Position numbers and translations under genes: made by a program. A stretch of DNA of 64,000 bases. It comes from Candidatus Poribacteria bacterium. GTDB lineage: Bacteria > Poribacteria > WGA-4E > WGA-3G. The first letter of the stretch is position 1. Each line of letters begins with the position of its first letter. The stretch covers positions 124,001 to 188,000 of the forward strand of contig JAJEIE010000008.1 in the NCBI GenBank assembly GCA_022827625.1, given 5' to 3'. The notes under the pieces are model-generated. The model searched no databases. It worked only from the letters and a program-made list of their open reading frames with translations, and was not told the origin of the DNA. Below, one piece after another: positions 33,224 to 34,022 of the stretch.

Positions 33224-33475
33224 TCACCGCCGTCCACCTTTCCAAAGATAGGCTTCATAGCCGACGCGTTCAAAAAAAAGCGGAGAGGTCAAGCCTTCAG
33301 TTTCGCGTTTCTTGACAATCTCCAATGCAGTGTCGCCGAACCAAATCTTGCCGCTTTTCGGATCAATGCCAGCAGTCTGTCCAATCCGCTCGGTGATATC
33401 ATGCTGTTTCTGATATTCTGCCCAAATCTGCTTGCATCTGCGGGAATCGGCGTCCGTCCACTCTGGATGTTTCAT
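33224..33475 (-). CDS. Small conserved-looking protein of unknown function
   Basis: 83 residues from ATG 33475; a TTG at 33514 would add 13. It reads as a compact basic protein: HPEWTDADSRRCKQIW, QKQHDITERIGQTAGIDP, KIWFGDTALEIV, LFFERVGYEAYLWKGGRR. The codons and sequence look like a real protein rather than an antisense shadow, and I recall similar small uncharacterised proteins in cyanobacteria and related genomes. No function can be assigned. No strong ribosome site. Confidence 0.6.
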   Translation of the reverse strand: MKHPEWTDADSRRCKQIWAEYQKQHDITERIGQTAGIDPKSGKIWFGDTALEIVKKRETEGLTSPLFFERVGYEAYLWKGGRR

Positions 33476-33572
33476 CTTGTTCTTCGGTGTGGAAACCCCG
33501 TGCTTTAGAATCAACGGTATTCAGGTTTCCTTATGGGCATGAACCGGGGGAGGAACACCGCTCCTTTTTTTC

Positions 33573-33601
33573 TTGACGAACTTTCCAATCTCTGCTATAA
33601 T
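33573..33601 (+). promoter_or_regulatory. Near-consensus sigma-70 promoter with no intact gene downstream
   Basis: TTGACG (33573-33578), 17-base spacer, TATAAT (33596-33601). The next intact plus-strand gene is thousands of bases away. The expected transcript would run through the IS605/TnpB relic. Confidence 0.65.
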
Positions 33602-33915
33602 CCATATTGGGAAAGTTCGATCACACGGAGAACCGTCGTGTGTGAGGTTGTCCGCAAACTCTGGTGGATATGTGCTTGCGGCGCGTAAAACTAAAAAAAA
33701 ACATATACACTTTCACCGCCAGAGTAAACACTTGAATGTAATGAACGCCACATGTAAAAACGTGGGTTCGTAAAAGCATTCTCAAAAATAAATAGTCAAC
33801 TTTTAGTTGAGTGGGTTGCTTGGACCCCACTGTGGAGCAGAGGTAAGACCAAAGATGGCAAACTGTTATGAAGCACAAGCCCCAACCTTTAGGTTGTGGG
33901 TGCCTTGACTGTTAA
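33602..33915 (+). mobile_element. Decayed IS200/IS605-like element with tnpB tail and right-end hairpin
   Basis: An imperfect hairpin near 33617-33643 (TCACACG...CGTGTGTGA) could be a left end. In one frame (codons in phase with 33738) VMNATCKNVGS, stop, KHSQK, stop, IVNF, stop, LSGLLGPHCGAEVRPKMANC... can be read, which matches the DVNAxxNI tail and post-zinc-finger end of TnpB broken by three nonsense codons. It is followed by a right-end-type hairpin CCCCAACC-TTTA-GGTTGTGGG (~33879-33901). TnpA and nearly all of TnpB are missing. The TnpB assignment is inference from motif memory. Confidence 0.55.
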
Positions 33916-34022
33916 TGCCTCCTGCGGTTTCTGTTTTCCTGCTTTCTAGGTAACAAAGTTCCTGAACTGATTCCAACTATAGCATACCATGAAACCTGGA
34001 CCCATGTCAAATTTATATAGAA

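Follow-up and report, generated by a model that had tools for sequence, protein, structure and literature searches.

The 434-bp element, its ends and its promoter

The window is a stretch of 64,000 nucleotides, positions 124,001 to 188,000 of contig JAJEIE010000008.1 of a Candidatus Poribacteria bacterium. On its forward strand, positions 33476-33909 hold a gene-less element of the IS200/IS605 type, PATE-like and 434 bp long. A close relative (genome G022) has the empty site, which fixes the ends exactly; by sequence comparison it reads TTTCAT|TGTTAA, without target duplication: the uninterrupted G022 site is ...ATGTTTCAT|TGTTAACGCC..., the occupied site here ...ATGTTTCAT|element|TGTTAATGCC.... 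The two longest flank alignments with G022 have identities of 94% (trpA side) and 93% (clpB side). At a second location in G022 (C91), a copy of the element is present at 97% identity, with the left flank TTCAG instead of TTCAT. Because of the empty site and this copy elsewhere, the element is a mobile unit and not a remnant; it is complete and has transposed recently. The original prediction had placed a decayed TnpB element at 33573-33915, a span that is too narrow and covers the inner and right part of the real unit.

The element carries near-terminal palindromes akin to IS605-type ends (a left palindrome and a right-end hairpin) and, at 434 bp, is too short to encode a transposase. Terminal inverted repeats were not seen among the repeats detected in it. 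The longest ATG-initiated ORF in the span read has 52 amino acids and is not conserved, and the longest ORFs of the gene-less elements vary from copy to copy (in the copy comparison the lengths of L087 and L090 are overestimated, owing to false left ends). A pattern derived from a related element retrieved 12 contigs among the named genomes, all from Poribacteria, and the search for spread of the element gave no matches to phages or plasmids.

The left flank ends in the target motif TTTCAT (33470-33475, forward strand), a putative TAM that is also present at the G022 empty site. The left end could be identified in 26 copies, some of them fragments; their flank reads TCAT in 20, TCAC in four and otherwise in two. 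All four TCAC copies carry the second right-end type, so that, as far as these copies indicate, the target motif shifts with the omega type. TTTCAT at 33470-33475 is also the reverse complement of ATGAAA, the start codon of a small ORF on the opposite strand; this insertion and several others lie immediately upstream of a start codon on the opposite strand, the native ribosome-binding region being replaced.

The left-end palindrome, followed by a T-run, occupies 33485-33567 (forward strand), an arrangement repeated in other copies. Its arms are CGGTGT (33485-33490) and ACACCG (33555-33560), with CCCC / CGGGG within, and a terminator-like site is located at 33546-33567. A small palindromic repeat with own-genome matches is lodged inside it at 33507-33549, much as SMR-A repeats sit inside IS605/PATE palindromes of Haloquadratum; 31 of 37 own-genome matches of the element are to this repeat or to left ends bearing it. 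Copies of the repeat also border a Y1 transposase gene (L095, L096), a hint that the two form a REP/RAYT pair.

A sigma70-like promoter, TTGACG-17-TATAAT, is found at 33573-33601 on the forward strand, as the original prediction had stated. It matches 11 of 12 consensus positions, has TG before the -10 box, and stands against 0.7 promoter-like sites expected in shuffles. A similar promoter lies directly upstream in most related copies; the pattern searches for promoter and ends skipped several copies (one read 20 of the 29 loci, the 434-bp element not among them), and the skipped copies were judged from their sequences. The -10 box is flanked by a 10-bp inverted repeat, CGAACTTTCC/GGAAAGTTCG (33577-33619; arms 33577-33586 and 33610-33619), which is recognisable in type A copies and possibly resembles an operator for some regulator.

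RNA domains and their conservation

The RNA predicted for the element is about 300 nt long, of which the last 100 nt or so would form an omega-RNA scaffold. Downstream of the promoter, all on the forward strand, are a type A 5' RNA domain with a hairpin and pseudoknotted helices (33610-33728), a domain C hairpin (33734-33781), a hairpin GTCAAC...GTTGA between domain C and the scaffold (33796-33810), and the omega-RNA (reRNA) scaffold itself (33811-33909). The scaffold comprises a pseudoknot (33817-33821/33871-33875), the right-end hairpin CCCCAACC/GGTTGTGGG (33880-33900) and TTGAC (33905-33909). The hairpin had been named in the original prediction and is backed by covariation.

Related elements were collected from 84 sampled genomes of the phylum, 38 of them in the host's genus. 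They are spread across one genus of Poribacteria and carry two alternative 5' RNA domains. Type A copies are L078, L079, L080, L081, L082, L084 and L088, with fragments in G003 and G001. A second set has a different 5' domain, type B, whose conservation is high (mean column identity 88% over 15 aligned sequences); 4 of its 16 predicted pairs show double changes, and its model finds at least 32 loci in 21/84 genomes of the phylum. Domain C is common to types A and B, and its model finds at least 29 loci in 19/84 genomes, both counts being lower bounds as part of the candidates was scored. No TnpB motif was found within about 420 nt of any of the 29 domain C loci. Model R3 retains only six base pairs and is thus mainly sequence-based. 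Some type B elements (L119, L124-L126, L128 and L129) carry a different omega end, and the 5' RNA and the omega end are therefore taken to be exchangeable modules.

Covariation is strong over domain C and the omega scaffold. In 18 gene-less copies (17 distinct), 97.3% of 692 cells are paired and 19 of 41 pairs show double changes. None of 500 shuffles reaches any of five measures, sliding the partners lowers pairing to 30-47%, and RNAalifold, given no structure, recovers most of these helices. Left out of these counts (alignment A3) are L132, the copies with the second omega type (L124-L129), and L041, which lacks its right end. Helices 1 and 2, in the domain C hairpin, are 94.1% paired with double changes in 7/13 pairs; helix 3, the following hairpin, is 100% paired with double changes in 2/5. 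For the type A domain (eight copies) 93.9% of cells are paired and 5/25 pairs show double changes. Its covariation score exceeds that of all 500 shuffles, but 30/500 shuffles reach its count of doubly changed pairs and 297/500 its count of further pair types, so that support for this structure is moderate. Folded alone, the RNA of the 434-bp element lies 2.5 standard deviations below shuffles. The wobble test of RNA against single-stranded DNA gave G-U versus A-C counts of 15 to 8, 4 to 5 and 5 to 6; covariation alone fits either RNA or folded single-stranded DNA.

No Rfam match was obtained up to E 5 in the element region, nor in ten related loci searched up to E 1. An IStron (a group I intron joined to an IS605 element) and a HEARO / IscB omega-RNA were considered and set aside on these searches, in which neither the group I intron nor the HEARO family was matched; Rfam includes both.

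Relation to tnpB elements and the predicted flanking guide

Homology to the 3' ends of tnpB elements is confined to about 33811-33909, at 77-88% identity. The tnpB elements inspected match from about 33811 onwards, some of them also at the left palindrome, while the part from the promoter to about 33810 is common to other gene-less elements and was not found in the tnpB elements inspected. TnpB relatives with the same right end, which the original prediction had proposed to look for, do exist: at 14/14 loci with the shared 3' end, an ORF with the TnpB zinc-ribbon motif has its stop codon within the shared stretch, directly after ...EQM or EQI. The corresponding frame of the 434-bp element reads GCLDPTVEQR-stop. 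The account of a TnpB tail broken by stops was not confirmed: VMNATCKNVGS lies in RNA domain C and is absent from the inspected tnpB elements, and CGAEVRPK is in the frame of VMNATCKNVGS, out of the TnpB frame. On the sequences compared, the interior is a separate conserved RNA domain and not tnpB wreckage.

As in a TnpB omega-RNA, the scaffold is homologous to a tnpB 3' end and its fold is conserved, and the right flank supplies a predicted guide (33910-33929, forward strand) that adjoins the right end. In the G022 empty site, TTTCAT is followed by a sequence that differs from the guide at two of its first 20 nt, so the flank guide matches the empty site beside the target motif, as predicted for its natural target. 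For the first 16 nt of the guide, no second site was found in the own genome at 0-1 mismatches; at up to 3 mismatches the guide has 34 own-genome matches and its reversed control 45.

Searched with the TnpB TNB domain, the own genome yields 18 matches above the cut-off. L099, on C31 of this genome, encodes a protein of 374 amino acids with OrfB_IS605 and TNB domains, which resembles solved TnpB chains (E 6e-42); its omega end is 87% identical to that of the 434-bp element. A cognate tnpA was not found in the own assembly; at three loci of the genus (L172, L174 and L175) tnpA followed by tnpB is found with like ends. At a further locus (L199, G007:C47) a Y1 tnpA gene is split by a tnpB element and its leader.

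Between promoter and start codon, the tnpB elements here carry a 5' leader of their own (L099:635-726, and the leaders of L100, L103, L105, L044, L050, L051 and L057). In it a closing stem encloses an H-type pseudoknot, and the stem's 3' strand occurs in two copies, the second immediately preceding the ATG. In the eight sequences (alignment A5, which excludes L102 and L106, misaligned in A4), 95.8% of cells are paired with the first strand copy and 96.8% with the second, with double changes in 14/27 and 15/27 pairs, respectively. The leader model finds 46/84 genomes, all 38 of the genus among them, with up to 48 copies per genome, and Rfam gave no match in the scanned tnpB loci L099, L100, L102, L103 and L106. 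Because the two mutually exclusive pairings adjoin the start codon, the leader may possibly act as a translational switch. By eye, the 5' domains of the gene-less elements resemble this leader (GGTTG motif, pseudoknot), a likeness that the models do not support: the best match of R1 among gene-less elements has E 1.5 and that of R2 among tnpB leaders and type A has E 1.6, neither being significant. No claim of homology is therefore made.

Proposed function and known systems

The reading favoured here, to which we give moderately better than even confidence, is that the sequence represents a non-autonomous PATE-like IS200/IS605 element, a single transcription unit, whose product would be a stand-alone omega-RNA for TnpB acting in trans. 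The element probably borrows TnpB and transposase from other elements in order to persist and spread. The sequences show where the element ends and where its guide would lie, that it is mobile, and that it has a promoter-like sequence, a conserved structure and an omega scaffold; transcription, TnpB binding and cleavage we infer, and co-resident TnpBs are putative acceptors of its scaffold. From the promoter, an RNA of roughly 300 nt would run past the right end into the flank. TnpB from tnpB-carrying elements would bind and trim this RNA, leaving the flank as guide. TnpA in trans would excise the element, the TnpB-RNA complex would cut the empty donor site at TTTCAT plus guide target, and repair from a sister copy would restore the element. 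The 5' domain might protect, fold or regulate the precursor, which is the least certain step of the proposal. The suggestion in the original prediction of a stand-alone structured RNA holds up, as does its link to TnpB and omega-RNA.

Were it instead an ordinary PATE, only the DNA ends would matter, with TnpA provided in trans; the interior would be a passenger and its structure that of single-stranded DNA hairpins formed in transposition or replication. The element does fit the definition of a PATE, and the compensatory changes fit folding of single-stranded DNA equally well, the G-U and A-C counts not separating the two. We nevertheless regard this as unlikely, given that covarying helices reach about 175 nt inside the right end, where we know of no IS605 transposase signal so far, that a promoter lies directly upstream in most copies, and that tnpB 3' ends retain this very omega scaffold. 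The RNA might also be regulatory and use no guide: it would titrate TnpB, or hold down tnpB elements as an antisense or decoy, and the flank would play no part. Such a function would agree with the absence of tnpB beside the omega scaffold, with an extra 5' domain that differs from the tnpB leader, and with the occurrence of one 5' domain alongside two omega types. However, the right ends keep a TTGAC-type boundary beyond which the flank, the potential guide, differs per copy as in normal tnpB elements; we consider a guide-free role improbable. Debris of a tnpB element after internal deletion, as the original prediction allowed, could account for the short TnpB C-terminal trace (GCLDPTVEQR-stop) and for the lack of a conserved ORF. 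This view is contradicted by the covariation and the empty site, the element being complete and recently moved, its RNA structure kept by compensatory changes in many copies and its interior not found in the inspected tnpB elements; we rule it out for practical purposes, leaving it very little credence.

PATEs (palindrome-associated transposable elements) have been described from Haloquadratum walsbyi (PMC3119063) and Halanaerobium (PMC7290912). According to the excerpts of these papers available to us, they share with the 434-bp element its shortness, lack of genes, subterminal IS605-like palindromes and absence of target duplication, and are likewise thought to be moved in trans; Haloquadratum PATEs also have small repeats lodged in their palindromes (PMC3119063). 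Those excerpts present PATEs as non-coding ends or deletion products and do not mention a promoter, conserved RNA or an omega scaffold (PMC3119063, PMC7290912). In its ends, its size and its lack of genes and of target duplication, the element is thus of a known kind; its own promoter and conserved RNA, including a complete omega scaffold, are new relative to those descriptions as excerpted. In the ISDra2 model, as outlined in an extract, TnpB cuts the donor joint (PMC8612924), and TnpB of Alicyclobacillus is reported, in the portion seen, to process its own mRNA into omega-RNA (PMC10278001). As far as those two extracts go, the element resembles TnpB omega-RNA/reRNA in its right-end 3' scaffold, pseudoknot, flank guide and TAM-like motif beside the target (PMC8612924, PMC10278001). 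Unlike TnpB omega-RNA, the RNA of the element does not form the 3' portion of a tnpB mRNA: a promoter of its own precedes it, and two 5' RNA domains are added. A literature search, mostly of open-access coverage, revealed no paper recognised as describing the RNA of the element or the tnpB leader. Stand-alone IscB omega-RNAs and gene-less IS605 relatives in Geobacillus have reportedly been found, likewise guide-type RNAs without an adjacent nuclease gene; to our knowledge these have a different effector, or are not known to carry conserved 5' RNA domains.

In a broader proposal, which in our estimate stands at an even chance, the lineage would have been reduced to a promoter-driven omega-RNA plus an exchangeable 5' RNA, using the transposase and nuclease of its neighbours and switching nuclease partner by swapping the omega end while the 5' RNA is kept. 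One 5' RNA paired with different omega types would be a direct handle on TnpB-RNA specificity. If the reading is true, the selfish benefit of RNA-guided homing would be separable from the nuclease gene, guide RNA and ends being sufficient. Trans-use of TnpB would become testable in natural sequences, natural extended omega-RNA precursors would be supplied, and the persistence of gene-less IS605 relatives in the face of excision would have an explanation.
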